64,000 nt of DNA from Arthrobacter sp. P2b. GTDB taxonomy: Bacteria > Actinomycetota > Actinomycetes > Actinomycetales > Micrococcaceae. The DNA lies in the NCBI RefSeq assembly GCF_900168295.1, contig NZ_FVZL01000019.1, forward strand, positions 1 to 64,000, in the 5' to 3' direction. Of the stretch, positions 5,725 to 36,443 are shown in pieces (positions within the stretch are counted from its first letter, which is position 1; each line of letters starts with the position of its first letter). The notes below the pieces were generated by a model that saw only the letters and a program-made list of their open reading frames with translations, made no database searches and was not told where the DNA came from. A program made the position numbers and the translations under genes.

Positions 5725-6143
5725 AGGTGCTTTACCCCTTCGCTCTTGGTGTAGTACGTGGCATGCCGGTAATCCTTGCCCTGCGGCGACTCGAAGAACG
5801 ATCCCTTGGCGTCCGGGTCGCTCGCGGCGATGGCCTCGGCCGGGACAACCCAGATGGAGACACCCTCGTTGCGGCGGGTGTAGAGGTCGCGGGCATTGCG
5901 CAGGGCCATCGCGGCATCCGGTGCATGGAGGCTGCCGGCATGAACATGGCTCAGGCCGCGGCTCGACCGGACAAAAACCTCCCAGAGACCCCAGGCCCCG
6001 CGGTCATGGGTTTCGACAGGCTCAACCACCGGACGATCGTTGGTTGAGCTTGTCGAAACCACCGCCGGGCTCACCTTCTGCGCGTCGCGGTTGATCTCGG
6101 TGGCCGAGCTTGCGGGGACTTCCGGGTTGCCGTGGGGGCTCAT
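5721..6143 (-). CDS. paaB: phenylacetyl-CoA epoxidase subunit PaaB with repeat-derived N-terminal extension
   Basis: The conserved PaaB domain begins near residue 48 ([21 protein letters not shown]) and runs to the C-terminus with [14 protein letters not shown] and [16 protein letters not shown]. It bridges PaaAC units in the epoxidase. The protein is about 140 residues against roughly 95 for usual PaaB. Residues about 27-47 ([18 protein letters not shown]) are translated from a palindromic repeat at 6009-6060. The ATG at 6143 overlaps the paaA stop (ATGA). A start downstream of the repeat would need an unseen internal codon. Confidence 0.9.
6009..6060. repeat. palindromic repeat inside the paaB reading frame
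   Basis: Two inverted units (TTTCGACAGGCTCAACCACC from 6011, and TTGGTTGAGCTTGTCGAAAC to 6059) form an almost complete palindrome centred on CGATCG. It is the same family as the intergenic elements at 2079, 57603 and elsewhere, but here lies in frame within paaB and is translated. The frame stays open across the whole element. Confidence 0.85.
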
Positions 6144-7132
6144 GCTGCGTATTCCTTCGTCTTCTTTGACTGTTTTGCTGCGTAAGCGGCTGCTGCCTCG
6201 CGGACCCAGGCGCCGTCGTCGTGCGCTGCCCTCCGGCGCTCCAGGCGCTGGGCGTTGCAGGGGCCGCGGCCGGCGAGCACTTCCTGGAACTCGTGCCAGT
6301 CCAGCGGGCCGTGCTCCCACTTCCTGGTGTCCTCGTTGAAGCGGACCTGGTCATCCGGGAGGGTGAGGCCCAGGACCCGGACCTGCTCCACCATCATGCC
6401 CACGAAGCGGCTGCGGAGTTCGTCGTTGCTGAAGCGCTTGATGTTCCAGGCCATGGACTGCTTGGAGTTGGGCGAATCGTCGTCCGGCGGGCCGAACATC
6501 ATCAGGGCCGGGGCGTACCAGCGGTTCACGGCGTCCTGGGCCATCTGCTTCTGCTCGGGGGTGCCGTTGGAGAGTTCCAGGAGGATCTCGAAGCCCTGGC
6601 GCTGGTGGAAGCTCTCCTCCTTGCAGATGCGGACCATGGCGCGGCCGTAGGGGCCGTAGGAGGCGCGGCACAGCGGGACCTGGTTGCAGATGGCGGCGCC
6701 GTCCACCAGCCAGCCGATGGCGCCCATGTCCGCCCAGGTGAGCGCGGGGTAGTTGAAGATGCTGGAGTAGCGGGCCTTGCCGGCGATGAGGTCGTCCATC
6801 ATCTTGTCCCTTGTTTGGCCAAGGGTTTCGGCGGCGGAGTAGAGGTAGAGCCCGTGGCCGGCCTCGTCCTGGACCTTGGCCATGAGGATGGCCTTGCGCT
6901 TGAGGCTGGGGGCCCGTGAGATCCAGTTGGCCTCGGGCTGCATGCCGATGATCTCGGAGTGGGCGTGCTGGCTGATCTGGCGGAGCAGGGTCTTGCGGTA
7001 GGCCGCCGGCATCCAGTCCTTGGGCTCGATGCGTGAGTCCTCGGCCATGACGCGGTCGAAGTGGGCCTGGGCCTCAGCCTCCTCTTCCGGGGATAGCTCG
7101 GCGGGCACTGACTGCAGGTTCTGCGCTGCCAT
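6140..7132 (-). CDS. paaA: phenylacetyl-CoA epoxidase catalytic subunit PaaA
   Basis: The 330-residue catalytic subunit binds a diiron centre and inserts oxygen into the aromatic ring of phenylacetyl-CoA. Diiron ligand motifs are visible as DEAGH (near 95-99) and EESFH (near 172-176). [23 protein letters not shown] and [15 protein letters not shown] are PaaA hallmarks. It is the first gene of paaABCDE. ATG at 7132 has a good AGGAG Shine-Dalgarno, and the stop overlaps paaB. Confidence 0.96.
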
Positions 7133-7172
7133 GGTTGCTCCTATGCAAAGACCTTCTGGGACGTGCGGAATT

Positions 7173-7194
7173 ATTTACCGACCGTTCGTTCAGG
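7173..7194. promoter_or_regulatory. candidate PaaR (TetR-type) operator upstream of paaA
   Basis: The 22-bp site contains ACCGACCGTTCGTTCAG, matching the ACCG-N2-CG-N2-CG core with half-palindromic flanks that I recall for the PaaR operator of Corynebacterium glutamicum. It sits about 40 bp upstream of the paaA start, where a repressor released by phenylacetyl-CoA would act. No paaR gene is in the window, so the regulator is inferred. Confidence 0.6.
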
Positions 7195-7260
7195 ATATGC
7201 GGAAGCGTTTGGGGCCGTCAAGCGGTGGGCGTGTCCCCTCCTCGCTGCTCCCCCTCTTCC

Positions 7261-7347
7261 CGACGCCCCATCACCTCCTGCGGGTTTTCCCCCGACGCTC
7301 TATCAGCTCCTGCAGGTTTTCCGGCAACGCTCTATCAGCTCCTGCAG
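7261..7347. repeat. tandem 32-bp repeats, about 2.7 units
   Basis: Units begin at 7261, 7293 and 7325. Each carries CGCTCTATCAGCTCCTGCAG, degenerate in the first copy, followed by GGTTTTCC. The period is 32 bp with no unique spacers, so this is not a CRISPR array. It lies between paaA and a convergent-side lipoprotein gene. Confidence 0.75.
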
Positions 7348-7367
7348 TGGACAGGCCAGGCAGGAGG

Positions 7368-8015
7368 CTATGAGGCACTTTTGGTTGCAGATGCTGTCGG
7401 AGCCGCCGTAGTGGGTGGTGGTGAGGTGACGCTCGTCGTCGTCGATGGCGTGGGCGTGGGCGTGCCGGTTGTCGAAGTTGCGGAGGGCGATGTTGACGTT
7501 GTGGCCGTAGAAACCGGAGTGGGCGCAACAGTCTTCTTCGTGGGAGTGGCAGAACCGGACGCGGCTTCAAGAGGGACTGAAATCTTTTTCGTGGGTTTGC
7601 TGGGCGCGCTCTTGTTGGTAACTGCCACGTCCAGGGTGACGTCCCGCGGGCCACCGGCCAACCATTCGCCGCGCACAATGCATGTCCTGCCCGGCTTCAC
7701 GCCTTCCGGGCACGTGTTCACAATTATCCGGAATGTTGTGTTGCCGCCCAGCCCGACATCCGGCACCAGGTCTTCGCTGGTGTCATTCACAATTTCGAAG
7801 GATTCAATAGTGCCGGCTCTAACAATCGGGCTTCCCGCACCGGGCTCAATGAGCCAGTCGTCACCGCCAATCCTTACCCGGTGAGTTACGGAAACAGGCG
7901 TGGATTCAGTACCGCCGTTTAGGGATGGCTCGCCGTTTGTAGGTGGCCCGCCACACGCACAAAGGGAAGCCAATGCAATGCATGAAAGGGCTGCGGCCTT
8001 GGAATGAAGCTTCAT
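7368..8015 (-). CDS. putative secreted lipoprotein with Thr/Pro/Ser-rich tail
   Basis: The 215-residue protein was not recognised. The chosen ATG at 8015 gives a lysine-containing signal sequence (MKLHSKAAALSCIALASLCACGG) with a plausible lipobox cysteine near residue 20. A middle domain (about 40-130, possible beta sandwich) is followed by about 75 residues of Thr, Ser, Pro and Ala, like a wall-spanning linker. It starts 4 bp after the membrane protein gene at 8020-8904, so the two are likely co-transcribed. Confidence 0.7.
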   Translation of the reverse strand: MKLHSKAAALSCIALASLCACGGPPTNGEPSLNGGTESTPVSVTHRVRIGGDDWLIEPGAGSPIVRAGTIESFEIVNDTSEDLVPDVGLGGNTTFRIIVNTCPEGVKPGRTCIVRGEWLAGGPRDVTLDVAVTNKSAPSKPTKKISVPLEAASGSATPTKKTVAPTPVSTATTSTSPSATSTTGTPTPTPSTTTSVTSPPPTTAAPTASATKSAS

Positions 8016-8019
8016 CGAC

Positions 8020-8904
8020 TTATCCCTCTCCCGGTTCGAATTCGACCCGGTATTCCGGGCTCTCCTCCAGAACGATCGCGGCGCCGGCATCACGGGACCA
8101 GTTGGCGGGCAGCAGGAAATACTTGTTGGAACTGAGCGTGACGAATTTGAGTCCGGTGTATTTGAAGCCGTACTTTGAGCCGGGAACGGATACTTTCTCC
8201 TCCACCACCGAGCTTCCGAGGGCGAGCGAATGCACACTGTAGACCGTCACCGACGGACGCCTGCTCAACTCCCGCTCGTAATCCCTGGACCTGCCCGTGC
8301 CCAATGCTCCCGCATATAAAGAGCAAGCCCAAAAGAGGGCCACAACCACCAGGAGGACCACGGAAACGTACCCAAGTTTCTCCCACATCGGCAGGCGCCT
8401 GAGCCTTTGGTCCCCCAGCGCGGTCCTTCGAAGGGCCCAGAAAGCGTATGCGCTGACTGCGATTCCACCACCAAGCGCACCGGGCTCAAAGAGAAAAGGT
8501 GTCCTGAACGGGGGCTCTTCGAAGATGGTCCACACTCCGAGGGATGTGAAAAATATTCCTGCGAGCAGCACGAACCCGGCGGCCAATTGAACATAACCGA
8601 GCCCAACGCCGCGCCGGATGATACTCCGTGTAACGGCATGAATCGCAACGCCCACAATGCTTACGAGCAGGAGGAGGATCGCCGGAACGATCAGGGCATC
8701 AGCACTGCGAAGAAGATAATCCACCGTGGAATATTCCAGGACGCTTTGGTCAATGCCGAAGTACGCAGTTCGTGTGGCCGTCATTGTCCAGCCGAACCAA
8801 AACGAAAGTGCGGTGGCCACGGTGGTGAGGGGCGCAATGATGGCAAACCATTGCAGGACAGAGTGGCTCAGGTCAGCACCGCTGCTGCTGGGCGCCTTGC
8901 TCAT
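8020..8904 (-). CDS. hypothetical multi-pass membrane protein
   Basis: The 294-residue protein has about five hydrophobic segments (around residues 14-40, 60-85, 100-125, 135-160 and 180-205) followed by an extracytoplasmic or cytoplasmic C-terminal domain of about 90 residues. No family was recognised. The start is taken at ATG 8904 because the longer frame begins with low-complexity Arg-rich sequence. It is followed by the lipoprotein gene, suggesting an envelope pair. Confidence 0.65.
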   Translation of the reverse strand: MSKAPSSSGADLSHSVLQWFAIIAPLTTVATALSFWFGWTMTATRTAYFGIDQSVLEYSTVDYLLRSADALIVPAILLLLVSIVGVAIHAVTRSIIRRGVGLGYVQLAAGFVLLAGIFFTSLGVWTIFEEPPFRTPFLFEPGALGGGIAVSAYAFWALRRTALGDQRLRRLPMWEKLGYVSVVLLVVVALFWACSLYAGALGTGRSRDYERELSRRPSVTVYSVHSLALGSSVVEEKVSVPGSKYGFKYTGLKFVTLSSNKYFLLPANWSRDAGAAIVLEESPEYRVEFEPGEG

Positions 8905-9178
8905 CCGTGAAGTACGCACGGAACGGGACGAAGGGGCGTGAAACCCTCGGCTCAAATGTGTGCGCGGCGTGCTTCGCGGGACTCTACCCGACTTCACTAG
9001 CCGCCTCCTCAGCCTAGGGACGAGCCGGCTCAGGACTACATCCCGGAACCTCCTCAAAACTCGAGGTGGTCCCTTTCCATCAGGACACAACGGGCGTTAC
9101 TGCGGCGTTACCCACCCTTCCGTCCGTAAGCCAGGAGTGGCAAGCACAGCGTGTGCGTCTGCTCGTTCCCGCCACTGG

Positions 9179-10096
9179 CTACTTCTTCTTGCCCTTGTCC
9201 TTTTTCTTTTTGCTTGGTTCTTCCACGGACCGGCTTGGTTGCCCAAACTGATCCTGGATCCACTTTCGGAACCCTGCGACACCCGCCGCAAGGGTGCCCG
9301 CAATCGCAACGAGGAGAAGCCACTGGGTCTCTAACCAGAACGCCAACTGCTCGAGTAAAGTGCCGCGAACTTTTACTTCTGTAACGATGGTTGCCTCACT
9401 GGTGTCCGCATAACTGGAATCGCCGCTACCCTGCGTGTACAGCAGTCCGCCGTTTGCTCCCGCTGTCAGAACAGCGGGCCGAATAACCAGACGAAGTTCC
9501 TGATCGACAGGCTTGTCGGCAGAGACTGACCATGACCACTCAGCGACACCCAAAGGAGTAAAGTCCTGGCTCACCCACTCCTCTGAGTTGTCCACTCGCA
9601 TAAAATCCCCCACGGCAACCAACTTCGCGGCGACTGTGCACCTGACGGCTATTTGCTCAGAACCAGACTTACCGGCGACGACGATTACTTCATCGGCAGG
9701 CAACGGGTCTTCGCGGACATCCACGGCTGCGTTATACGTAACCGACTCATTAACCGAGATCGATAGTTCCTTCGGATAGTCAACCTGACCGGTCCGCCAG
9801 CGGTTTACGCCGCTTTCACAATCGCGTTGAAAGTTCTCGACGGCAGCGGATTCTGGTAGATGTTGAGGCGGCTGAGATCCTGGTTCAGATGGAGAAAACT
9901 GGGGCCTCAGGCTCTCGAAATCCTGCCAATCGAGATCCGATGAGTCAGGGGCGACCCCCAACACTTTGTCGGAGGATCTGTCCGAAGGCGTAAAGTGCAT
10001 GTCGAAGTACAAGAACAGGCAAGCCAGCGCGATTAGCGCACCGACCCAGGCTGTCGCCGCGAAGATCCACTTCGGAGTGGAACCCCTTCCCGTCAC
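9179..10096 (-). CDS. hypothetical membrane protein anchored at both ends
   Basis: The 305-residue protein starts with GTG at 10096. It has one TM helix near residues 10-30 and a second near 258-277, with about 220 polar residues between them that are probably extracytoplasmic. The C-terminus is very Lys-rich (KKKKDKGKKK), as in cytoplasmic tails that touch nucleic acid or membrane. No known family was recognised. It is divergent from the sigma-54-like gene, with about 150 bp between starts. Confidence 0.65.
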   Translation of the reverse strand: MTGRGSTPKWIFAATAWVGALIALACLFLYFDMHFTPSDRSSDKVLGVAPDSSDLDWQDFESLRPQFSPSEPGSQPPQHLPESAAVENFQRDCESGVNRWRTGQVDYPKELSISVNESVTYNAAVDVREDPLPADEVIVVAGKSGSEQIAVRCTVAAKLVAVGDFMRVDNSEEWVSQDFTPLGVAEWSWSVSADKPVDQELRLVIRPAVLTAGANGGLLYTQGSGDSSYADTSEATIVTEVKVRGTLLEQLAFWLETQWLLLVAIAGTLAAGVAGFRKWIQDQFGQPSRSVEEPSKKKKDKGKKK

Positions 10097-10248
10097 GCAA
10101 ACAGTGTAGGTCCCGTTACCTGACTTGTCCCCGTCCAGTGCCTACCCGAGTTTCGGTACGGCCGTTGGCCGTTGGGCGCCGGCGCATGGGCGTCAATCAC
10201 GCCAGTGGCTCCCTTTCGGCGTGCCTCATTGCAGGGCTAACCTGTGGC

Positions 10249-11559
10249 ATGGTCAGCGGAGCGTCCGGCCAAGGCCTGGAACTGCAGGTAGGTCCCCAGG
10301 CTGAACTGCGCACCTTGCCCGGCTTACTGAACGCAATGGGCATGCTGGCCATGACACATCAGGAAGTAGCGGAGGCCACCGAACGCTCGCTGGCCGAAAA
10401 CCCTGTGCTGGAGCGGATGGACGGCCACCCCTGCCCCGGCTGCGGCCGCCATGTCTCCTCCGGCACCTGCCACCGTTGCAGGGGAAAAGGGACAGCCCCG
10501 CAGTTCCAGGACGGGGCCGAATCGGGGGTAGATCCCTTCCGCACGCTGGAGGCCGATGCCGGGCTGGAAGTCCGATCAGACTGCCGGCAGGCCCTCGAAT
10601 CCGTGATGGCCCACCTGACTCCGCGCGGAATCCTTGACGCCGGTCCGGAAGAGATCGCCCGGCTTCACGGCCTCAGGGACCAACAGGTCCAGGAAGCCCT
10701 CCGCGCACTCCGGGCGGTGGGTCCGCCCGGTATCGCATCCACCAGTGTCACCGGACTGCTGGCGGCCCAGGCTGAAGCGCTGGTTGAGGCCGGCGAGGTG
10801 CCTGGCTGGCTCCCCCGCCTGGTCAGCGAGCACTTAGCCGACCTCGCCGCGGGAAGTACCGCCGCCGTCGTACGTGCCATGGGACTCACCGAACAGCAGG
10901 TATTGGCGGGACTGGCCGTCATCAAGGACCGGCTGCGGCCGTTCGCCGCAGTAGAGACAAGCACCACGGACGCCGCCGCGCCCACAGCTGACGTCTTCCT
11001 GTACCGCAGGCCGGACGGGTCGCTCGAAGTAGAGGTACCGGCGAGCGTTTGGTTCGGACTGCACGTAGTGGACTTGTCGCTAGGTCTGCGGGCTTCAACC
11101 GACGCGAAGCAATGGCTGGCAGAACACGAAGTCGCTGCCCAGCGGCTGATTTACCAGATCGACCGCCGAGCCAACGCACTTCTGCGCATCACCGAATGCG
11201 CCCTAACCCATCAGAAGGACTTCCTGGACCACGGCCGCAGCCACCACCATCCCCTCACCCGCACGGCAGTAGCGCAGGAAATCGGGCTGCATCCCTCCAC
11301 CGTCAGCAGGGCGGTCAGCGGCAAGCGGCTGCGGCTGCCCTCCGGAGCCGTCGCTGATCTGTCCTGTCTCTTCGGCAAAGGGCAGGCGTCGCGGGCAGCG
11401 CTGGAGGAGCTTATCGCAGCCGCGCCCGGCACGATGTCTGATGAAAAGCTTCGCGCAGAACTCGCCCGCCACGGCTTCGAGATTGCCCGGCGGACCGTGA
11501 ACAAGTACCGCCGTTCCCTCCGCCCGGACGGCCAAGCCGGGTCCAGCCCGTTTCATTAG
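10249..11559 (+). CDS. rpoN: RNA polymerase sigma-54 factor (RpoN-like), divergent
   Basis: With ATG at 10249 the product is 436 residues. Region I is residues 8-55 (GLELQVGPQAELRTLPGLLN to ENPVLE). The core-binding domain is about 110-235 (AHLTPRGILDAGPEEIARLHGL; GPPGIAS; LVSEHLADLAAG). The -12-binding HTH is about 335-376 (PLTRTAVAQEIGLHPSTVSRA), and the RpoN box ARRTVNKYRR is at 413-422. Residues 62-77 carry an unusual CPGC...CHRC zinc-ribbon-like insert. An upstream in-frame start at 10138 exists but adds non-RpoN sequence. The presence of sigma-54 in an actinobacterium is exceptional. It precedes its likely target cluster. Confidence 0.9.
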   Translation: MVSGASGQGLELQVGPQAELRTLPGLLNAMGMLAMTHQEVAEATERSLAENPVLERMDGHPCPGCGRHVSSGTCHRCRGKGTAPQFQDGAESGVDPFRTLEADAGLEVRSDCRQALESVMAHLTPRGILDAGPEEIARLHGLRDQQVQEALRALRAVGPPGIASTSVTGLLAAQAEALVEAGEVPGWLPRLVSEHLADLAAGSTAAVVRAMGLTEQQVLAGLAVIKDRLRPFAAVETSTTDAAAPTADVFLYRRPDGSLEVEVPASVWFGLHVVDLSLGLRASTDAKQWLAEHEVAAQRLIYQIDRRANALLRITECALTHQKDFLDHGRSHHHPLTRTAVAQEIGLHPSTVSRAVSGKRLRLPSGAVADLSCLFGKGQASRAALEELIAAAPGTMSDEKLRAELARHGFEIARRTVNKYRRSLRPDGQAGSSPFH

Positions 11560-11570
11560 CCGCGAACCCT

Positions 11571-11628
11571 CTTTCGCAAGGGCGAAGGCCGCTTCGGCAG
11601 CGCCCCCTCCAAGAGCCGGAAAACCGGC
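11571..11628. promoter_or_regulatory. candidate upstream activator region with overlapping dyads
   Basis: Three dyads lie 33-90 bp upstream of the -24 element: CTTTCGC/GCGAAGG (11571-11588), CGAAG/CTTCG (11583-11596) and GCCGG-AAAA-CCGGC (11615-11628). They fall where enhancer-binding proteins often bind. They could instead terminate the sigma-54 gene, whose stop is at 11559, although no T-run follows. Confidence 0.4.
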
Positions 11629-11660
11629 GCGTTCCCGCTGGGACCAGCACCCGAACCAGT

Positions 11661-11676
11661 TGGCACGAATTGTGCA
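11661..11676 (+). promoter_or_regulatory. sigma-54 (-24/-12) promoter
   Basis: The sequence TGGCACGAATTGTGCA matches the consensus TGGCACR-N4-TTGCW at all but one fixed position. GG at 11662-11663 and GC at 11674-11675 are separated by exactly 10 bp. The predicted transcript starts near 11687, leaving about 60 nt of leader before the ATG at 11748, which has an AAGGA Shine-Dalgarno. It lies directly between the sigma-54-like gene and the following seven-gene cluster. Confidence 0.85.
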
Positions 11677-11747
11677 GTAGGAGGGTATGCGGTGTTCCGC
11701 GAGGGTGTCCCCCAAGGCACCCGCAAGACTCCGGGAAGGAAATACTC

Positions 11748-12449
11748 ATGCACGACATCGACAGGGCACTTTTTGAGGGCCAGGACGAAGGCACCTGGGG
11801 CGAGGTGATGGACGAAGAATCCGGCTACTCGTTCGAGGGCGAACAGTCACCGTTCCAGGCCGAAGACTCCTACGAAAACGACGAGATGTGGGGCGAGACT
11901 GACGGCGAAACGGACGAGCTGGCCCTCGCCGCCGAGCTGCTGGCCGTCACCGACGAAGGGGAACTCGACCAGTTCCTGGGAAGCCTGGCCAGGAGGGCGG
12001 TCTCCGCCGCAAAGGACTTCGCCGGATCTTCGGCTGGCAAAGCCGTGGGCAACATCCTGAAATCGGCGGCCCGGAAGGCCCTGCCGCAGCTCGGCCAGGC
12101 GGTGGGCAACTACATCGTCCCCGGGGCAGGCGGGCAGGCCGGCCAGCGCGTGGGCCAGTGGCTTGGGACGAAGTTCGAGTCCGGGCTCCAGCTGGAAGGC
12201 CTCTCCGCCGAGGACCGCGACCTGGAAACGGCCCGGGCCTTTGTCCGCTTTGCCACCTCAACCGCCCAGCGCGCCGCCGCCATGCCCAAGAGCGTTCCCG
12301 CTCCCCTGGCCGCACAGAAGGCGGCCACCGCAGCCGCCCGCCAGCACCTGCCAGGTCTCCTCAAAAGCCCAGGCAAGTCCGGGTCCCCTGCAGAAAGCGG
12401 TCGCTGGATCCGCCGCGGCCGCAACATCGTGATCCTCAACGCCAGATAA
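11748..12449 (+). CDS. acidic-leader protein with Gly/Lys-rich amphipathic core (paralogue 1)
   Basis: The 233-residue protein is first behind the -24/-12 promoter. Residues 1-60 are very acidic (Glu/Asp-rich, with Tyr and Trp). A helix ELDQFLGSLARRAV follows, then a Gly/Ala/Lys segment (GKAVGNILKSAARKALPQLG), then an Ala-rich helical region containing ARAFVRFATSTAQRAAA. It ends in GRWIRRGRNIVILNAR. The next gene encodes a clear paralogue. I know of no function. The acidic leader plus cationic amphipathic core could suit a processed or membrane-acting protein. ATG at 11748 has SD AAGGA. Confidence 0.8.
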   Translation: MHDIDRALFEGQDEGTWGEVMDEESGYSFEGEQSPFQAEDSYENDEMWGETDGETDELALAAELLAVTDEGELDQFLGSLARRAVSAAKDFAGSSAGKAVGNILKSAARKALPQLGQAVGNYIVPGAGGQAGQRVGQWLGTKFESGLQLEGLSAEDRDLETARAFVRFATSTAQRAAAMPKSVPAPLAAQKAATAAARQHLPGLLKSPGKSGSPAESGRWIRRGRNIVILNAR

Positions 12450-12485
12450 CCACCCGGCTTCAATCCCACCCCAAAGGACAGTGAC

Positions 12486-13238
12486 ATGAGCACCAACTAC
12501 TACGAAAACGAATCCGCTTTCCCCTGGCAGCAGGAAGACGAGGACGAAGGAAACTTCAACGGCTACGAAGGCGAACAGGACAACGAGGAAAACCTTGAGT
12601 CCGAGCTGGCCATGGAGCTCCTGAGCATCACGTCCGAGGAAGAACTGGACCAGTTCCTCGGCAAGCTCGCCCGCAGCGTGGTGAAAGGCGCGTCCAGGTT
12701 CATCAAGTCCCCCATCGGCAAAGCACTCGGAGGCGCCCTGAAATCGGTGGCCAAGAAGGCGCTGCCCATTGTGGGAGGTGCCATCGGCTCCTTCGTGGCT
12801 CCCGGCGTCGGGACGGCCATTGGCAGCAAGCTCGGCTCCCTGGCTGGCGGGCTGCTGGAAGCCGAGGAGATGGAGTCGATGGACGAGATGGAAGCCGAGG
12901 AAGAGGCTGCCCGGCGGTACGTCCGGTTCGCCCGTGCGTCCTACCGCAACGCCGCGCGGACGCCTGTCTCCGTGCCGCCGGGTGCCGCGGCACGTGCAGC
13001 AGCCACCGCCGCGGCCCGCCGGTACGCGCCGTCCCTGCTGCGCGCCCGCCAGGCCGCGCGGCGCCGTCCCCGCGGCGGCACCCGGATCTACGGCGACCAG
13101 TATGCCGGCGCCACGTGGGGCGCGCCCGACGAAGGCTGGGACAGCCAGTCCGACGGCGGCAACGGCACCTCGAACGGCAACGCCGACGAGGGCCGGTGGA
13201 TCCGCCGCGACGGACGCGTCATCCTCCTGGGCGTGTGA
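12486..13238 (+). CDS. acidic-leader protein with Gly/Lys-rich amphipathic core (paralogue 2)
   Basis: The 250-residue protein shares its architecture with the preceding gene product: acidic residues 1-45, then EEELDQFLGKLARSV, then SPIGKALGGALKSVAKKALP and a glycine-rich GAIGSFVAPGVGTAIGSKLG stretch. ARRYVRFARASYRNAA and a C-terminal GRWIRRDGRVILLGV follow. The middle recalls cationic amphipathic peptides in composition only. It lies 36 bp downstream of its paralogue and is presumably in the same sigma-54 transcript. Shine-Dalgarno AAAGGA precedes ATG. Confidence 0.82.
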   Translation: MSTNYYENESAFPWQQEDEDEGNFNGYEGEQDNEENLESELAMELLSITSEEELDQFLGKLARSVVKGASRFIKSPIGKALGGALKSVAKKALPIVGGAIGSFVAPGVGTAIGSKLGSLAGGLLEAEEMESMDEMEAEEEAARRYVRFARASYRNAARTPVSVPPGAAARAAATAAARRYAPSLLRARQAARRRPRGGTRIYGDQYAGATWGAPDEGWDSQSDGGNGTSNGNADEGRWIRRDGRVILLGV

Positions 13239-13273
13239 TCCGGCACCGGGGAGGCGAAGGGTAGGCGATCGGC

Positions 13274-14596
13274 ATGGACACGAGAACCATCAGCACGGGG
13301 CTGATTGAGAGCGAGGCGACCGGCCTCCTGTCCCGCCTGGACCAGATCAAGCCCTTCGTCATGCACGAAACCATGGTCCTCGCCGCTGCCCTGCCCCGCG
13401 ACGCCCAGCTCCTGATCGAGCGTTTCCTCCACACCGGGCGCAACGAACTCCGCCTGCAGCTCGCCGACTTTCTTGACTGGCTGCACGGGGACGGACAGGT
13501 GGCCTCCGCCGCCGAACAGCAGCGCCGGTTTGTCCTCATCCGCCTCCAGTTCAACGTGGTCCTGGCCCAGTTCGACCTCTTCACCGAGGTGGTCACCCAG
13601 CGCAGTGAACACGCCACCGGCGTCTGGCTGTCCGGGCTGGACATCCTGGCGCAGGATGCGCTGCGGCTTGAAACGTCCGACGACGGCGACACCAGGCTGG
13701 TGGTCTACCTCGCCAGGGGTGCGGGTGCGGCAATCCGCCGGGCGAAAACCCGGCTTCCGGGCGGCAAGCCGAACCCGGTGGGGATCATCCGGCTTCCCCG
13801 GGAGCGGATGATCGGCAGCGGGATTGCCTCTTCGCTGGTCCACGAAGTGGGGCACCAGGGCGCCGCGCAGCTGGAGCTGGTCCAGTCCCTGCGCGCGGAG
13901 ATCGAGCGGCGCGCGGCCCGTGATCCGGACGGGGGCTGGCAGGTGTGGTCCCAGTGGATCAGCGAAATCGTGGCGGACATGTGGTCCGTTGCCACCGTGG
14001 GCATCACGTCCACCATCGGGCTCCTGGCGGTGGTCAGCCTTCCGCGGTATTTCGTGTTCCGCCCCAGCGGCACGGATCCGCACCCGATGCCCTACCTGAG
14101 GGTGCTGATTTCCTCGGCTCTGGGGAACGCCCTGTACCCGCATCCCCAGTGGCGGGAACTCGCCACGGTGTGGAAGGCGATGTATCCGCTCGCGGGGCTT
14201 CCGGCCGCGCACGCGTCCTGGATCCGGAACTGCGAGGCCCATATCGGGGATCTCGTGGATCTGCTCATTCATCACCGCGCCCCTCTGGCGGAAGGCCGCG
14301 AACTCGGCACCATCTTTCCACTCAAGGAGCGCCAGCCTGGCCGGTTGCTGCGGCTTCACGAGGCGTGGGACAGCGACTTCGGCGTGATGGCCCGCCAGCG
14401 TCCGGCCCTGGTGTTCGCCGTCCTGGGCCAAGCCAAGGCGGCCGGACGCATCTCAGCAGAGGAGGAAAGTTCGCAGCTCTCCTCGCTGCTCACAGCCTGG
14501 GCGGTCCGGGACAGCCTGGACGTTCTGGGCACGCCTGCTCCTGCCCGGGTCCGCACAACCCAAACTTTCGCTACAACAGCACTAACTAGGAGATAG
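13274..14596 (+). CDS. putative zinc metallopeptidase-like protein (HEVGH)
   Basis: The 440-residue protein has a canonical HExxH (H190, E191, H194 in SSLVHEVGHQG). About 40 residues later SEIVADMW (230-237) has a glutamate placed like the third ligand of gluzincins. A hydrophobic stretch follows (VGITSTIGLLAVVSL). There is no signal peptide. The family was not recognised, so peptidase activity is inferred from the motif. Processing of the acidic-leader proteins encoded upstream is one possible role. It is the third gene of the cluster. Confidence 0.78.
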   Translation: MDTRTISTGLIESEATGLLSRLDQIKPFVMHETMVLAAALPRDAQLLIERFLHTGRNELRLQLADFLDWLHGDGQVASAAEQQRRFVLIRLQFNVVLAQFDLFTEVVTQRSEHATGVWLSGLDILAQDALRLETSDDGDTRLVVYLARGAGAAIRRAKTRLPGGKPNPVGIIRLPRERMIGSGIASSLVHEVGHQGAAQLELVQSLRAEIERRAARDPDGGWQVWSQWISEIVADMWSVATVGITSTIGLLAVVSLPRYFVFRPSGTDPHPMPYLRVLISSALGNALYPHPQWRELATVWKAMYPLAGLPAAHASWIRNCEAHIGDLVDLLIHHRAPLAEGRELGTIFPLKERQPGRLLRLHEAWDSDFGVMARQRPALVFAVLGQAKAAGRISAEEESSQLSSLLTAWAVRDSLDVLGTPAPARVRTTQTFATTALTRR

Positions 14597-14598
14597 CC

Positions 14599-16197
14599 AT
14601 GGAATTTACTCGACGGCCCATAAATCCTGTATACGCCGGACAGGAGGTTGCCCTGCGGTTCGATCTGAGGGATTCAGAGTCAGCTGGAACCTTCGAATTT
14701 CAAGTAGTTCCGGCGGGCGGAGGCAACCCAATTCCCATAGATGAAGGCAAAGGAGGTGCCGTCCGTCGGACCTTGGCAGAGGGAGAAGGCTTCGAGCGGA
14801 TGGTCTTGATCCCCGATCCAGGTACATACGAGGTCCAATTCCGTCGCATCAACGAGGTAGAGGCGGGCAAAAAGGCAGAGATCGGTAAGGCAACCTGGGA
14901 AACCCTGGATACCTTCACGGTTAAGCGCAAGGAGACCGCGCCGATTGTCAGGGTGGCTCTGGAACCAAATGCAAAGCCCGGCAGCACCCATGCGCATTTG
15001 TGGAACTTCATCCAGAACGTGACAAAGAACAGTCGATTCGAGCGCTTTGCCGGGTATGCCCAACAAAACGCACAGGAACTTAGGGACTTCACGCGGTACG
15101 GATCATTAACGTACGAACAGCTGCATGAACTGGCAACAGATTTCGTGACCGAGTCAGCCTTGGGGAATACGTTCGCCCGGTCTTCCCAGTCAGGGAACCT
15201 CGAATGGAAACCCGCAAACGGCTCGAGGGAAGCAATAGAGGGCTCATATGTCAGCCAGGAGCGGGGCGACCAGGCGGAACCATTCCCGCCCGGGTTTCCT
15301 GCGGGACAAGACTACCCTTTGAAGCTCGTGCCGTTTACGGAGCTCATTTACGTTTACTGGCTGGAGGAAGGCATGTTGTTCCAGTCGCTGAACAGGATCC
15401 TTGCCCGCTTCCAGAACCGCCGTGTGCCGATGGGCGGGGATCCACTTTCCCGGCTGGCGGTCAGCCCGCTCCTGCCCCTGCGGGGACTCCTGTGGGGGCT
15501 CGCAGAATCAGAAAAGGACCGGCTGTCCCTGCGGCGCCGGGCCGCCGAGTATGAGTACCAGTACGGCCTGAAACTGATCGGCCGCGCCATACCGCCGGGC
15601 GAACTGATGGTGGAGCGGCGGACGCAATTCCTCGGAGCCTTCCACAGCCTGCTTCACGATTGCCATCACTACTACAAGGAGCACAACGACAAGACCGTGG
15701 ATGCGGACGCTTTCCCACTTCTCAGCAGCCTGCGGGAGCTTCACCTGGTCTTGGCCTATGGGGCGAATAACCAGTTCGCCGACATGTCCGTGACAGCCCG
15801 CATCGAAACCATGGAAGTGCAATGGATGCTTGCCCAGCCGGAAATGCGTGAGTTCCTGGGTGGCCGCACCATGGTTCCCTATGACGAAGACTGGATGGAC
15901 AGGGTAGACGCCATGAAGTCGATCCAGGGCTGGTCCGACGCAAGCATCACACACTTCTATGACCTGGCCGTCCACGGCGAGCAACTGCTTCTGTCCGTCC
16001 GGCACGGACGCTGGAACGAGTCCGACATGGAAGGCGATGACGCCGAGAACTGGGCCATCAAGTGGAAGCCGTCTGTCCAGCGCTACATCCACGCCTACAG
16101 GGCAGTCACGGGAGTGGACCTCAGCGAGCGCGTGGACACCACCATGCCGTCCACGCTGTTGCAGCGCCGGCTGGCCCGGAAGCTCGTGCGGTACTGA
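14599..16197 (+). CDS. large hypothetical protein of the sigma-54 cluster
   Basis: The 532-residue protein was not recognised. The first 110 residues look like a beta-rich Ig-like domain (PVYAGQEVALRFDL; DPGTYEVQFRR). The rest is mainly helical. A His-rich motif FHSLLHDCHHYYKEHND near residues 350-366 might bind metal. No signal peptide or TM helix is obvious. Its Shine-Dalgarno AGGAGA overlaps the end of the metallopeptidase-like gene, so the two are translationally close. Base composition of the first 600 bp is slightly lower in GC than its neighbours. Confidence 0.75.
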   Translation: MEFTRRPINPVYAGQEVALRFDLRDSESAGTFEFQVVPAGGGNPIPIDEGKGGAVRRTLAEGEGFERMVLIPDPGTYEVQFRRINEVEAGKKAEIGKATWETLDTFTVKRKETAPIVRVALEPNAKPGSTHAHLWNFIQNVTKNSRFERFAGYAQQNAQELRDFTRYGSLTYEQLHELATDFVTESALGNTFARSSQSGNLEWKPANGSREAIEGSYVSQERGDQAEPFPPGFPAGQDYPLKLVPFTELIYVYWLEEGMLFQSLNRILARFQNRRVPMGGDPLSRLAVSPLLPLRGLLWGLAESEKDRLSLRRRAAEYEYQYGLKLIGRAIPPGELMVERRTQFLGAFHSLLHDCHHYYKEHNDKTVDADAFPLLSSLRELHLVLAYGANNQFADMSVTARIETMEVQWMLAQPEMREFLGGRTMVPYDEDWMDRVDAMKSIQGWSDASITHFYDLAVHGEQLLLSVRHGRWNESDMEGDDAENWAIKWKPSVQRYIHAYRAVTGVDLSERVDTTMPSTLLQRRLARKLVRY

Positions 16198-16206
16198 GGA
16201 ACGGAC

Positions 16207-17274
16207 GTGTCCACCGCAATGGCCGGGACACCAGGTGCAGCGGACTTCACGTCCGCCCTGTTCCTGGGCCAGCGCCACCCCAGCGCCGTTGTACCGCCCT
16301 GGACCGAGCTCACTACCGGGGTCCCGGCAGTCCTGCGCGAACTGCCGGCGGCCACGGAGCTCGCCTGGGCCGTGGCCGCGCAGCAACACGCCGGCTCCGG
16401 GCTGGTTGCGAGATCGGCCCTGCACGGGATGATGGACATCCTGCAGGTGCTCCCCCAGCCCGGTGACCTGCTCCTGGTCGATGCGGGCGCCTACCCGCTG
16501 ACCCAATGGGCCTGCCGGGCGGCCGCCGCCCGCGGCGTGCGAGTGGTGACGTTCCCGCATTTCCGGCCTCCCGCCGTCGTACCTCAAACCAGGACGTGGC
16601 TGGTGACCGACGGCTGGTGCCAGGGGTGCGGCCGTTCCGCCCCGCTCGGAGCCATGCAAACACTCGTCGGGAAGACCGGCGGGCGGGTGGTCGTCGATGA
16701 CTCCCTGGCGTTCGGTGTGCTGGGTCAGCGGGCCGCCGAGGCCAGTTTTGGGGACGGGTCCGGCGCGGTGCGATGGCAGGGACTGAAGCACGACGGCGTG
16801 GTGTGGCTGGGCTCCCTGGCCAAGGCGTACGGAACCCCCGTCACGGTCATCACCGGGGACCGGCCGACGATCACCAGGCTCGCCCGGCATGGCGGCAACC
16901 GCCTGCACAGCAGTCCGCCCTCGGCAGCGGACCTGGGCGCCGGCCTCAGCGCTGTGCGGGACAGCCGTATGCCACGGCTGCGGGACCGGCTGTGGCGGCT
17001 TACGCGCTGGCTGCGGCAGGCTTTTGGCAATCTTGGGCTTCCGCCGCTGGGGCTGCCGTTCCCCATTGTGGGGACCCGATTGGACTCGCTTCAGCTGGCA
17101 CGGCGGTGGCGTTCAATGCTGGTGGCGCGGGGTGTCCAGGTCCTGGTTCAGCTGCCCCGCTGCCAGCCGGGTGCGCTGTTGTCCGCCGTGGTGCGGGCCG
17201 ACCACCCGCAGGCGGACCTTGACCGGCTGGTCCGGGGCCTCGCCGCCTTAACCCAGGACAGGCGCGCTGCCTGA
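16207..17274 (+). CDS. PLP-dependent fold-type I enzyme, BioF/KBL-like
   Basis: The 355-residue protein resembles the alpha-oxoamine synthase branch. VVVDDSLAFGVLG parallels the DDAHAFGVLG aspartate motif, and GSLAKAYG holds the lysine expected to form the PLP aldimine. ARSALHGMMDILQVL is the N-terminal cofactor region. The substrate is unknown. The start is GTG 16207 behind GAGGAACG, and the stop overlaps the next ATG (TGATG). Its place in a sigma-54 cluster suggests amino acid or small-molecule modification. Confidence 0.78.
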   Translation: MSTAMAGTPGAADFTSALFLGQRHPSAVVPPWTELTTGVPAVLRELPAATELAWAVAAQQHAGSGLVARSALHGMMDILQVLPQPGDLLLVDAGAYPLTQWACRAAAARGVRVVTFPHFRPPAVVPQTRTWLVTDGWCQGCGRSAPLGAMQTLVGKTGGRVVVDDSLAFGVLGQRAAEASFGDGSGAVRWQGLKHDGVVWLGSLAKAYGTPVTVITGDRPTITRLARHGGNRLHSSPPSAADLGAGLSAVRDSRMPRLRDRLWRLTRWLRQAFGNLGLPPLGLPFPIVGTRLDSLQLARRWRSMLVARGVQVLVQLPRCQPGALLSAVVRADHPQADLDRLVRGLAALTQDRRAA

Positions 17275-18059
17275 TGATTGTGGACTCACACGTGCACGTG
17301 GGGACCGCCGGAGTTCCCCTGGGCCCTGCTGACCCGGAATCTTCCTTTGCCTTGTGGCGGAGCCGCGCGGCCGCCGTCGGAATTCGCAAGGCCGTCCTGA
17401 TGGCGGCGCCGGTGGGAACCTATGCGGCAGCCAACCGCGTGGTGGCTGATCTGGCCGGGCAGGAACCTGGTACATGGCTTTGGTACGTGTTCGTCAATCC
17501 CGCTGCGGACCGGGGACGGGTGGGCGCGCTGGTGGCCGCTGCCCACTCGCGGGGTGCCTGCGGGATCAAGGTGCACTGGTCCGACGGGATCGCCACGGAC
17601 GAGGTAGCCCGTGCGGCATCCCGTTTCAGGATGCCGGTGCTGTTCGACCCCCGCGGGGAGGTGCAGATTGTGACGCACCTGGCCGGGCGGCACCCCGATG
17701 TTCCCTGGATCGTGCCGCATCTGTCCTCCTTTGCGGACGACTGGCGGGCGCAGAAGCGGCTGATCAACGCGCTGGTGCGGGTGCCCAACATCTTTACCGA
17801 TACATCCGGGGTGCGGTACTACGACCTGCTGGAGGAGGCCGTTGCCCGGGCGGGGGCGCACAAGGTGCTCTACGGCAGCGACGGGCCCTACCTGCATCCG
17901 GCGCCGGAACTCGCCAAAATTTTTGCCCTTGGCCTTGGTCCCGAAGACCGGGAGCTTGTCCTGGGCGGCAACGTATTGCGGCTGACCAGGCCGGCAATCA
18001 GGGGTTTCCACATCCGCCGGAAACCCAGTGATACCAGGAGGGAAGAAGCATGGCTATGA
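17274..18059 (+). CDS. amidohydrolase family (TIM-barrel) protein
   Basis: The 261-residue protein shows the amidohydrolase_2 pattern: DSHVHVG at the N-terminus (residues 4-10), GIKVHW in the middle, PHLSSF, and YGSDGPY near the C-terminus with the catalytic-type aspartate. A metal-dependent hydrolase or decarboxylase is likely; the substrate is unknown. It overlaps the PLP enzyme gene by 1 bp and the following gene by 10 bp, so it belongs to the same operon. Confidence 0.82.
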   Translation: MIVDSHVHVGTAGVPLGPADPESSFALWRSRAAAVGIRKAVLMAAPVGTYAAANRVVADLAGQEPGTWLWYVFVNPAADRGRVGALVAAAHSRGACGIKVHWSDGIATDEVARAASRFRMPVLFDPRGEVQIVTHLAGRHPDVPWIVPHLSSFADDWRAQKRLINALVRVPNIFTDTSGVRYYDLLEEAVARAGAHKVLYGSDGPYLHPAPELAKIFALGLGPEDRELVLGGNVLRLTRPAIRGFHIRRKPSDTRREEAWL

Positions 18060-18670
18060 CAGGATCAGGAACCATCACGGGCCCGGGGCTTGCCGAAATC
18101 AAGCCGGAGAGTCCGGAAGGCATCCGGGCAGGGTTGTCCCAATTGCGGGACTACGTGTGGCAAAGCGAATATGCGCGGGGCAGGAAGCCGTCACCGCGAG
18201 CGGCGAAGGGTGCGGGCAAACGGGCATCATGGATCATCGGCCAAGAGCCGGACCGCCAGGCGATCTGGCTCATCACGTACCTTCCGTTGCCGGACCGGCG
18301 CGCACCGTCGCACGTGCGCGTTTTCGCCTATGAGGTGAGGCGGGAAAATCTGCCGGAAGTGGGCCGGCTTCCACCCACCAAAGATCTGCTGAAGCCCCGC
18401 CGTGTTCTCAGCGACATCAGGCTCAAAAAATTTATCCCCTTTCCGTCACCTGAGAAGCAGCCGGACATGTTCGGGCTTGCCGTCGAAGACCTTGTGCGCA
18501 AGGAATTCGGCAAGGTTTACAAGCGCACCAACTACCGGGGACGGCTGCCGGGCCGGCGGGGCCCGGATGTCCTGTGGCGTGAACTGGAGGACCTCTTCCG
18601 CGAACTCGCCTATGAGACCGGTGACGCCTACTGGCGGGAAGTGGCTGACGAGTTGTCCGTCGAATATTGA
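18050..18670 (+). CDS. hypothetical protein, last gene of the sigma-54 cluster
   Basis: The 206-residue basic, soluble protein has no recognised family. It begins at ATG 18050 with a very strong Shine-Dalgarno (AGGAGGG) inside the preceding gene. Features are a mixed alpha/beta middle (WIIGQEPDRQAIWLITYLPL; HVRVFAYEV) and a helical C-terminus. Its last 43 bp overlap the 3' end of the convergent activator gene, so the two genes are tightly packed tail to tail. Confidence 0.7.
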   Translation: MAMTGSGTITGPGLAEIKPESPEGIRAGLSQLRDYVWQSEYARGRKPSPRAAKGAGKRASWIIGQEPDRQAIWLITYLPLPDRRAPSHVRVFAYEVRRENLPEVGRLPPTKDLLKPRRVLSDIRLKKFIPFPSPEKQPDMFGLAVEDLVRKEFGKVYKRTNYRGRLPGRRGPDVLWRELEDLFRELAYETGDAYWREVADELSVEY

Positions 18671-20049
18671 CGCTCCTCGTCGTGGCCCGTCTTCCGGGCC
18701 TGCCGCTGCTGGACTGCCCGGTCCGTGAGCCCGAGCATCGCGGCAGCCGCGTGCACATTCCCGCCGCTCTGCTGCAGGGCAACGTCCACCGCGATTTCCG
18801 CCGCGCGTTCCTTGATCTCCCGCAGGCCAAGGCCCGCGTCCACTGCCCGGGCCACCGCCCTGGTGAGCGGATCGACGGCACTGGCAGGGCCGCCGTCGTT
18901 CGTGTCCTGACACTGTTGCAATGCCTCGAAAGCCTTCATAGAGGTGGGCCGGTCCTCGCGGGGAAGGTCGCCCGGGGTGATGGCTCCAGGACCCACGTGT
19001 CGGGCGGCGATCCGGAATGCCAGCTGCCGGAGGTCCCTGAGGTTGCCCGGGTAGGTCCGGCGGAGCAGGACGTCCTGGACGGTGGTGTCCACCTCTGGAT
19101 CTGTGCGGGCACCGCTGGCTTCGCGGCAGAAGCGCGCGAAGAGGCAGAGAATGTCCTCGATCCGCTCCCGCAGCGGCGGCATGGTGACCACCGAGGCCGC
19201 AATGCGGTGGTACAGGTCGGTACGGAAACTGCCGGCAGCGACTTCCTTGGAGAGATCCCGGTTCGTGGCACAGATCAGCCGGAACTTGCTGCGCAGCCAC
19301 CTGTCGCCTCCCACTCGCTTATAGGCACCCTCCTGGACCACGCGCAGCAGTTCTGGCTGAAGGTCGAGCGGAAGCTCGCCCACCTCGTCAAGGAACAGGG
19401 ACCCCTGGTCCGCGCCTGAGCAGGCACCCGTCCGGACGCTCACCGCACCCGTGAAAGCACCGCGTTCGTGCCCGAAGAGTTCGCTGCCCATGAGGGTGGG
19501 AACAATGGTGGTGCAGTCGACTGTGACCAGATTTCCTGGCTGCAGGCTTACCGCGTGGGCAACCCGTGCAGCCAGCTCCTTACCGGTCCCGGTTTCACCC
19601 TGGATCAGTATGGGTGCCTGGCCAAAACGCGCCGCCACCACCAGGTCCCGCAGTGCCGATCTCAATACCGGACTTTGTCCGGTCAACTTTTCACGGACCT
19701 CAACGGAGTCAAGGACCGCCTCAACATCTTCAACGCGCTGCATCCACGCCGAAATCGCTGCTACCTGGCTATGCCAGGTGATGCATTCCGCCGCCCCCTC
19801 CTCCAGCACCGGCCACGGTTTCAGCTTGCCGTCCGGCGGACCAATGACAAGCACCCGGCACCTGTTGTACTCGGCCGCCCCCAGCGCCGCCTTCAGGTTC
19901 TGTGAGTCCGCTGCGGACAGGATGATGCCAGTGGCTGATCCGCCCACCGGAGCATCTACTGTTTCCGTGACCAGGTTTGCCGTGCGAAGTTCTGTGATGG
20001 CCTCCCGAGCCCAGGCCTGCCCGCCACTGAGGTCAATCACCCAAGGCAT
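18628..20049 (-). CDS. sigma-54-dependent enhancer-binding protein (AAA+, GAFTGA)
   Basis: The 473-residue protein drives open-complex formation by sigma-54 RNA polymerase. Residues 1-120 are a sensory or degenerate receiver-like domain. The AAA+ domain has Walker A GETGTGKE (151-158), GAFTGA (197-202), Walker B SLFLDEVG (217-224), ATNRDL (261-266) and arginine-finger region FRTDLYHRI (275-283). A Fis-type HTH is near 423-450. GAFTGA is diagnostic of sigma-54 contact. It lies at the far end of the cluster from the sigma-54-like gene, on the other strand. Confidence 0.93.
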   Translation of the reverse strand: MPWVIDLSGGQAWAREAITELRTANLVTETVDAPVGGSATGIILSAADSQNLKAALGAAEYNRCRVLVIGPPDGKLKPWPVLEEGAAECITWHSQVAAISAWMQRVEDVEAVLDSVEVREKLTGQSPVLRSALRDLVVAARFGQAPILIQGETGTGKELAARVAHAVSLQPGNLVTVDCTTIVPTLMGSELFGHERGAFTGAVSVRTGACSGADQGSLFLDEVGELPLDLQPELLRVVQEGAYKRVGGDRWLRSKFRLICATNRDLSKEVAAGSFRTDLYHRIAASVVTMPPLRERIEDILCLFARFCREASGARTDPEVDTTVQDVLLRRTYPGNLRDLRQLAFRIAARHVGPGAITPGDLPREDRPTSMKAFEALQQCQDTNDGGPASAVDPLTRAVARAVDAGLGLREIKERAAEIAVDVALQQSGGNVHAAAAMLGLTDRAVQQRQARKTGHDEERQYSTDNSSATSRQ

Positions 20050-32154: not shown

Positions 32155-32156
32155 GG

Positions 32157-33247: not shown

Positions 33248-33279
33248 GACAGCTCTCCAAGGGGTTTCCGGTAACCGAG

Positions 33280-34662: not shown

Positions 34663-34714
34663 GGTGTCCTCTTTCATCCGTAGCGGCGGTTCGGTGCGGT
34701 TAGGCGGCGGGGTT

Positions 34715-34782
34715 GCCCAACTAGGTAGCAGTAACTGTCGTTTTGAAGCCCCAAAACGACATCTACTGCTACCTAGTTGGGC
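34715..34782. repeat. 68-bp imperfect palindrome (CCCAACTAGGTAGCAGTA family)
   Basis: GCCCAACTAGGTAGCAGTA at 34715 is mirrored at the right end (to 34782), with inner arms GTCGTTTTG and CAAAACGAC; only a few positions mismatch. It lies within the arsenic operon, between the Cys-rich peptide gene and the flavoprotein gene. The sequence matches a family I associate with Arthrobacter intergenic repeats. Confidence 0.75.
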
Positions 34783-34787
34783 GGGGG

Positions 34788-34844: not shown

Positions 34845-34872
34845 GAGGTTCACCCCCTCCCCTGTTCCCGGT

Positions 34873-35850: not shown

Positions 35851-35874
35851 GGCGTTCTCCCCAGGGGTCCCGGG

Positions 35875-36417: not shown

Positions 36418-36443
36418 TTGTTGTGAAGAGTTCCACGGCGGGA

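Follow-up and report, generated by a model that had tools for sequence, protein, structure and literature searches.

A divergent sigma-54 family protein and its putative single-operon regulon in Arthrobacter sp. P2b

At positions 10249 to 11559 of a 64,000-nucleotide stretch of the genome of Arthrobacter sp. P2b (contig NZ_FVZL01000019.1, positions 1 to 64,000; here called the window), an open reading frame (ORF) is found that the original prediction, based on the DNA letters, had read as a sigma-54 (RpoN-like) factor. The gene is followed by two palindromes, a -24/-12 promoter element, an operon of seven partly overlapping plus-strand genes (11748-18670) and, convergent to that operon and 7 kb from the sigma gene, a gene encoding a bacterial enhancer-binding protein (bEBP), the whole block measuring about 10 kb. 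Taken together, these parts probably represent a self-contained sigma-54 regulon with a single promoter. The regulatory components of this module are as follows.

10249..11559, plus strand: sigma-54 factor of 436 amino acids (Pfam domains; alignment to RpoN of other phyla)
11562..11577, no strand assigned: predicted upstream activating palindrome 1, GCGAA-N6-TTCGC (10 of 10 arm positions)
11582..11597, no strand assigned: predicted upstream activating palindrome 2, GCGAA-N6-TTCGG (9 of 10 arm positions)
11661..11676, plus strand: predicted -24/-12 promoter TGGCACGAATTGTGCA, GG-N10-GC (11 of 12 consensus positions)
18628..20049, minus strand: sigma-54 activator (bEBP), an AAA+ protein with a GAFTGA loop and a Fis-type helix-turn-helix (HTH) (PF00158, E = 4.1e-52)

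The ORF was confirmed to encode a divergent sigma-54 family protein. Read from its first GTG it spans 10138..11559; the ATG at 10249 yields the 436-amino-acid product and agrees with the starts of the orthologues. Both the DNA-binding domain (Sigma54_DBD, PF04552; E = 1.4e-28, 100.1 bits, cut-off 22.8) and the core-binding domain (Sigma54_CBD, PF04963; E = 2e-15, 57.4 bits, cut-off 22.9) score well above their Pfam cut-offs and are present in all nine genomes carrying the module, the latter at E ≤ 0.01. Near the C-terminus, the HTH (HPSTVSRA) is followed by the RpoN box (ARRTVNKYR), both aligning with Klebsiella and other RpoN proteins, so that the order of core-binding domain, HTH and RpoN box is as originally predicted. 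Region I (match at 10318-10413) is by eye in register with that of Klebsiella and, like the HTH and RpoN box, aligns with RpoN of Pseudomonadota, Bacillota and other classes of the phylum. A search of the PDB returned 21 distinct sequences at E values up to 0.1, all of them sigma-54 factors or RpoN (best E = 1.4e-24), and a profile built from the nine members again had solved sigma-54 structures as its best matches (6.9e-48). In all nine members, the frame is open and the RpoN box invariant; the TAG within the match of one of them (G094) is the stop codon directly following that box. Region II, lying between region I and the core-binding domain, has been swapped for a CxxC-x8-CxxC knuckle (10432-10479; CPGCGRHV-SSGTCHRC), which, judging by its motif, may bind zinc, and which is present in eight of the nine members and degenerate in the ninth (G1056). 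Structure prediction of the sigma factor (the window copy and that of locus L014) was discarded as too poor for use (predicted local distance difference test score, pLDDT, of 44), and a search of viral contigs with the sigma profile gave no confirmed relative (40 pattern matches).

Contamination is an unlikely source of the gene, since paaA on the same contig is 89 to 97% identical to that of nine relatives from the same genus, since completeness and contamination of the assembly stand at 99.99% and 0.69%, respectively, and since the module is also present in three single-contig chromosomes (G018, G094 and G193). The source genome (4.89 Mb, 47 contigs) contains a single PF04552 match, the sigma factor of the window.

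Downstream of the sigma gene, the -24/-12 element is the predicted promoter of this sigma factor, while the two GCGAA-N6-TTCGS palindromes, exactly 20 bp apart and starting 79 to 99 bp 5' of it (68 to 120 bp over the seven same-genus loci), are the predicted enhancer sites of the bEBP. Across those seven loci, all 16 promoter columns are invariant, compared with none of the 30 columns just upstream; on the 3' side, 14 of 44 are invariant, an underestimate owing to a base inserted in one locus. The palindromes show the same contrast, with 19 of 20 arm columns invariant, 0 of 16 in the spacers and 1 of 20 in the flanks (Fisher p = 9e-13). In a scan for GG-N10-GC matches within 420 bp upstream, the promoter scored 11/12 in the window and in eight other module genomes, the copy in one of these (G657) carrying one change. 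In 7/7 same-genus module genomes, the double palindrome occurred at a single place each (in G118, it was matched on both strands of that place), and the reversed-pattern control gave 0 matches. Just 3' of the promoter, an element (TATGCGGTGTTCCGC, 11677-11700) with a possible 4-bp hairpin is conserved in the seven same-genus loci.

The bEBP is the only strong PF00158 match of the source genome, the other four AAA+ matches being at 2.6e-8 or weaker. Its Walker A and B motifs and GAFTGA loop are intact in an alignment of 17 rows (11 displayed; the copy at locus L058, with a broken frame and an ORF of 243 amino acids, was excluded), with the loop reading GAYTGA in G657 and GSFTGA in G1056. A C-terminal Fis-type HTH is visible in this alignment (PF02954, 17.4 bits, under the cut-off of 22), and the N-terminus resembles, by eye, a degenerate receiver domain. 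At E ≤ 1e-10, one such bEBP was found in each of the eight further module genomes and in none of six module-less relatives (six of the nine at hand). We rejected an RtcR-type activator, as the PADLOC RtcR models cover residues 115 to 450 only (the AAA+ and HTH part) and no N-terminal CARF domain, and likewise a known defence system, PADLOC matching just that same part of the bEBP.

Between the sigma and bEBP genes lie the seven genes of the operon, here referred to as the cargo.

11748..12449, plus strand: cargo 1, acidic N-terminus, glycine-zipper-like, C-terminal GRWIRRGRNIVI tail (no Pfam match; alignment)
12486..13238, plus strand: cargo 2, paralogue of cargo 1 (PF13488 glycine zipper, 6.4e-4, 20 bits, below the cut-off of 25)
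13274..14596, plus strand: cargo 3, 440 amino acids, HExxH...ExxxD, candidate zincin-like metalloprotease (no Pfam or NCBIfam match)
14599..16197, plus strand: cargo 4, conserved protein of 532 amino acids, fold unassigned (no Pfam or NCBIfam match)
16207..17274, plus strand: cargo 5, pyridoxal phosphate (PLP)-dependent, BioF/serine-palmitoyltransferase-like (PF00155, 3.6e-8; NCBIfam matches all below cut-offs)
17274..18059, plus strand: cargo 6, amidohydrolase (PF04909, 4.2e-17)
18050..18670, plus strand: cargo 7, variable last gene, possible nuclease (PF15650, 0.0099, 16.5 bits, below the cut-off of 27.3)

Within the genus, PF04552 scored above its cut-off in 7 of 206 genomes (8 at E ≤ 0.001), and a homologue of cargo 3 with more than 80% identity was present in exactly these seven, out of 204 same-genus genomes searched for it. 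The gene order (sigma, cargo 1 to 7, convergent bEBP) is shared by the window, five further loci (L050, L051, L053, L054 and L055) and a locus in another genus (L056 in G657), and G040 carries the same genes split over two contigs; homologues in Arthrobacter with conserved synteny, for which a search had been proposed originally, do exist. Sigma, bEBP, the glycine-zipper genes, cargo 3 and cargo 4 are also found in G1056, in a different order and with an Amidase_2 gene in the cluster; cargo 5 to 7 were not found in the 20 kb of that genome. In six same-genus loci, the module lies 0.4 to 5.5 kb from paaA; in G040 the distance is about 15 kb. A comparison of the paa side with seven module-less relatives revealed no clean empty site, the neighbourhood being variable. 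Finally, Arthrobacter oryzae CC159 contains an isolated 5' remnant of the sigma gene (about the first 73 codons; 10103-10321 of its locus), and no other module genes were found within 20 kb of it, which indicates that the module gets lost in places.

Beyond the genus, near-full PF04552 matches were found in three of the four family-sample genomes above cut-off (of 295; G000, G118 and G657, with G716 having an HTH fragment; 13 at E ≤ 0.001), in three of the four from the class sample (of 394; G000, G118 and G1056, with G1192 being partial; 7 at E ≤ 0.001) and, outside the class of the window, in 15 of the 18 from the phylum sample (of 396; two others, G509 and G536, being fragments and one being the genome of the window; 21 at E ≤ 0.001). 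HTH-only or fragmentary matches were set aside: one in the genus (below cut-off; this genome later served as a module-less relative), nine below cut-off and G716 (above it only with its neighbours) in the family, three below and G1192 above in the class, and three below and G509 and G536 above in the phylum. From these counts, among near-full matches, the class shows module-type sigma-54 alone, while the other classes have a more canonical RpoN. Cargo 3 had one match in the phylum sample, in the genome of the window.

The statement that sigma-54 is missing from Actinobacteria, on which the original prediction drew, is the published view and at the same time too broad. As far as the accessible passages go, Actinobacteria have been described as being without a sigma-54 system (PMC3162934), rpoN has been reported in 2 of 182 actinobacterial genomes (PMC3372290), and Frankia genomes have been found to be without it (PMC5745019), whereas a 2025 survey (PMC12316311) reported rpoN hits in 4 of 173 genomes, one of them misclassified, and concluded that the phylum is effectively without functional RpoN. 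The RpoN genes that we found in other classes of the phylum (loci L016 to L030) contradict a blanket statement of this kind. The rare hits of that survey (Alloactinosynnema L-07, Modestobacter marinus and Citricoccus SGAir0253), which were dismissed there, are possibly the same kind of protein as the module sigma; unlike for the module reported here, the passages seen describe no linked bEBP, promoter, palindromes or operon. To the extent that these passages represent its conclusion, the module speaks against a phylum-wide lack of functional RpoN.

Related operons were also found outside the phylum. Among 72,556 records, cargo 3 and cargo 4 had five and four matches, respectively, all of them on plasmids of Ensifer adhaerens, Rhizobium CCGE531/532 and Paraburkholderia, with about 290 to 310 residues of cargo 4 matching at 51 to 53% identity in four rhizobial and Paraburkholderia plasmid records; the two Rhizobium records have one common locus type. 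All three full loci (L085 to L087) carry an orthologous bEBP, 44 to 47% identical to that of the window. When the window bEBP was searched against 2,061 plasmid records (E ≤ 1e-20), the four cargo-carrying records ranked first, the three distinct cargo loci scoring 324, 306 and 245 bits and the highest other record among the best 40 of the 2,061 scoring 191. In the 24-kb stretches of these loci, a search for the window sigma gave no homologue. Their operon promoters read TGGCACGGAGCTTGCA (12/12), TGGCACGGAGATTGCG (11/12) and TGGTATGACTCGTGCA (9/12), and each locus has two GCGAA-N6-TTCGC-like copies, 43, 41 and 32 bp apart, respectively. A further Paraburkholderia plasmid, PGU19, with a weak 26% match and an amidohydrolase match and no bEBP match, was excluded from the modules. 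Ensifer, Rhizobium and Paraburkholderia belong to groups established as using a resident RpoN. Separately, two other possible dedicated pairs were seen on plasmids: in Paracoccus sp. TOH, rpoN adjoins the gene of a sigma-54 activator, and in Latilactobacillus curvatus it lies near such a gene.

The sequences themselves show which parts are present, that these occur together in the genomes searched and that the double palindrome is unique, and from this we infer each biochemical step of the following switch. The sigma-54 factor would bring the host RNA polymerase to the promoter at 11661-11676 and keep it closed there. The bEBP would then bind the two palindromes at 11562-11597, assemble and spend ATP via its GAFTGA loop, such that the complex opens and the operon is transcribed only while the bEBP is active. 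The same combination of bEBP, palindromes and operon could, in Proteobacteria, use the resident RpoN, while in actinobacteria without RpoN the module would supply its own sigma-54. We put the probability that sigma, bEBP, enhancer, promoter and operon form such a self-contained regulon with one promoter at roughly 85%, and the suggestion that the sigma factor might be specialised for one local regulon has thereby gained a seven-gene operon with an activator, a promoter and an enhancer of its own.

Several observations weigh against this reading or against parts of it. Of the three Pfam domains of the family, Sigma54_AID (PF00309), covering the otherwise recognisable region I, remained below its cut-off of 23.8 in the window protein (0.001, 19.3 bits) and reached E ≤ 0.01 in just five of the nine module members. 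The TIGR02395 rpoN_sigma model likewise (9.8e-46, 156.7 bits) fell short of its equivalog cut-off of 277, for which reason we claim the protein as a sigma-54 family member and not as an RpoN orthologue; with an identity of about 24 to 30% to the RpoN proteins compared, it is indeed as divergent as had been noted. The low region I score, together with the A. oryzae remnant as a sign that the module decays in places, could also fit a sigma factor that is a non-functional, decaying relic, kept by its neighbourhood, with the operon being driven from an ordinary sigma-70-type promoter. We consider this very improbable, given that all nine members have an uninterrupted frame and an invariant RpoN box, that the gene is retained alongside an intact GAFTGA-type bEBP, and that promoter and palindromes are conserved where the adjoining DNA is not.

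Other such points concern the DNA elements. The exact double palindrome is missing from two of the nine genomes searched: in G657, a 10/10 copy and a 9/10 copy lie 23 bp from each other, and G1056 has a different palindrome, present twice, 42 bp apart and 5' of its 11/12 promoter. Most loci contain additional, weaker promoter matches of 8 to 9 out of 12 within the 420 bp scanned. Among the plasmid loci, the Paraburkholderia operon promoter scores 9/12 while a 10/12 match sits elsewhere in the stretch, and the Rhizobium stretch holds four other promoter matches of 10/12 or more. Palindromes of at least 9/10 are expected about twice per 24 kb by chance, with four seen in each proteobacterial locus (0.1 to 0.2 expected for 10/10); a single copy there consequently proves nothing, and it is the adjacent pairs before the promoter that stand out. 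Genome-wide, the promoter motif (up to one mismatch) occurs 119 times, 3 of these exact, without enrichment over the 152 matches of the reversed control. Such a number of loose matches might suggest that sigma and bEBP control a wider regulon, of which the local operon is just one target; however, since the count is no higher than that of the control, since the double palindrome (in the exact form and spacing searched) is found at one place per genome, and since each genome has one strong bEBP, we regard this as improbable. The uniqueness of the target thus comes from the enhancer pair, the promoter alone being unenriched.

The last of these points is the presence of a cousin operon, with 27 to 31% identity in cargo 3, in 11 of the 204 same-genus genomes, all of them without sigma-54 and none among the PF04552 matches of the genus. 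One of these loci (L101 in G013, about 5584-15628), when read by eye, contains an AfsR/SARP-like regulator, a long glycine-zipper-like protein, the cargo-3 homologue and a wall-active-looking protein of 1,046 amino acids; L102 and L103 are further loci of this kind.

As to the origin of the sigma factor, a tree of 36 sequences was built, from which the A. oryzae remnant and seven 3.4-kb duplicates had been dropped. The eight module sigmas from the family of the window form one group (100/99), joined by that of G1056 (97/94), and this group is separate from the sampled proteobacterial RpoN and from the RpoN of other classes. Its next neighbours are two proteins from the same phylum (G543 and G487; 93/88, not starred). 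The tree has long branches, several rows of odd composition and a midpoint root for drawing. G543 and G487 themselves have a divergent form of RpoN with a bEBP nearby. The GC content of the module (66.0%, against 65.7% for the window) is unremarkable and lends no support to a recent transfer.

Acquisition, which the original prediction had proposed, is plausible from the patchy distribution and from the bEBP and cargo homologues in another phylum, but neither donor nor direction could be established. The sigma factor might instead be an ancestral actinobacterial RpoN, retained only where the operon requires it, in keeping with the presence of RpoN in other classes, with the position of the module sigmas nearest G543 and G487, on the non-proteobacterial side of a weak midpoint root, and with the location of the module in the same neighbourhood, 0.4 to 15 kb from paaA, in 7/7 same-genus loci. 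Such an origin is possible, yet sits less well with the very patchy occurrence (within the genus, 7 of 206 genomes scored above cut-off, and the samples of 295 and 394 added a single other genus and a single other family) and with bEBP and cargo homologues on proteobacterial plasmids; the long branches of the tree count against it as well. Tentatively, and at slightly less than even odds, we favour a portable regulon that moves as a unit into bacteria lacking sigma-54, in which the putative zinc-knuckle hinge in place of region II may tune activator control and the cargo would be an undescribed antagonism or envelope system common to Actinomycetota and Pseudomonadota.

As for the cargo, an invariant core and a G-x-W-x-R tail are common to the paired acidic glycine-zipper proteins in 10 aligned rows from two phyla (copies from L014 and L050 to L055 and two further proteobacterial ORFs were omitted). 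In cargo 3, HExGHQ and E231-x3-D235 are invariant in the 10 homologues aligned (with L054, L055, L102, L103 and the split G040 copy omitted), a combination that we take to be a zincin-like signature and that no family model scored. Searching the PDB yielded no solved relative of cargo 3 at E ≤ 1 and, for cargo 4, chance-level matches alone (best 0.13); a single-sequence structure prediction of cargo 3 was discarded as too poor for use (pLDDT 43). A phage origin was rejected, as cargo 3 remained unmatched in 50,697 phage records; its profile found no confirmed relative in viral contigs (51 pattern matches), and weak PHROGs matches of the glycine-zipper proteins to tape-measure and tail lysin models (best 6.7e-5) were confined to the glycine-rich stretch.

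The last or extra gene differs between loci, encoding Amidase_2 in G1056, PG_binding and GIY-YIG domains in Ensifer, and PG_binding, DUF2272 and Glucosaminidase domains in Rhizobium; for the Paraburkholderia ORF in this position, Pfam gave no match. That the partners are conserved while this product varies, and is often wall-active, suggests a device acting in antagonism or on the envelope, and we speculate that the cargo makes, and then displays or releases, the paired glycine-zipper proteins plus a variable, often peptidoglycan-active product in inter-bacterial antagonism or envelope remodelling, although such a role is doubtful at present. The BioF/serine-palmitoyltransferase-like and amidohydrolase genes of the operon, found in Ensifer too, might alternatively point to a metabolic operon, in which a PLP enzyme and an amidohydrolase produce a small molecule; this, too, seems rather unlikely, as neither turned up in the 20 kb of G1056, a locus that retains the glycine-zipper proteins, the HExxH protein and cargo 4, and as cluster genes elsewhere encode peptidoglycan-binding, glucosaminidase, amidase or GIY-YIG domains.

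Elsewhere in the window, three genes between paaA and the module (7368-10096) have a GC content of 58%, against 66% for the window, and two of them adjoin the module in Arthrobacter nitrophenolicus as well. At 32109-37904, an arsenic-type cluster was recognised by eye, with several low-molecular-weight phosphatase-like reductases, an ArsR fusion and a major intrinsic protein (MIP) channel.

If our reading is correct, the module represents a complete, apparently maintained sigma-54 system in a phylum held to be without a working one. With one sigma factor, one activator and one promoter, it would be small enough to act as a minimal sigma-54 circuit of natural origin, from which a tight expression switch gated by ATP could be made for use in actinobacteria, and it makes testable both whether a sigma-54 can work with an actinobacterial core polymerase and how regulons travel with their own sigma factor. 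It also draws attention to an unnamed operon common with rhizobia and Paraburkholderia.

No description of the module was found in the open-licence literature (subscription journals lay mostly outside this search), and the cargo appears to correspond to no described system that we found. By description only, and as far as the passages seen go, the two glycine-zipper proteins encoded together resemble the Cdz bacteriocin of Caulobacter (PMC5380434); a Cdz-like type I secretion system was looked for among the module proteins scanned, none of which had a transporter-like Pfam match, the rest of the genome lying outside this search. With the sigma-54/RpoN family (PF00309-PF04963-PF04552, TIGR02395), the module sigma shares the domain order, a region I pattern ending in NPVLE, the core-binding domain, HTH and RpoN box, a GG-N10-GC -24/-12 promoter and a bEBP partner; it differs in having a knuckle for region II, in lying inside a single-operon module and in occurring in a phylum reported to be RpoN-less. 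The closest parallel in regulatory design might be RpoN3 of Cereibacter sphaeroides with its activator AprX (PMC11999139), likewise, in the accessible passages, a sigma-54 copy with an activator of its own and a narrow target. Whereas RpoN3 is described there as one of four RpoN paralogues, the module sigma is the only sigma-54 of its genome, accompanied by the only strong bEBP and encoded beside its predicted target operon.
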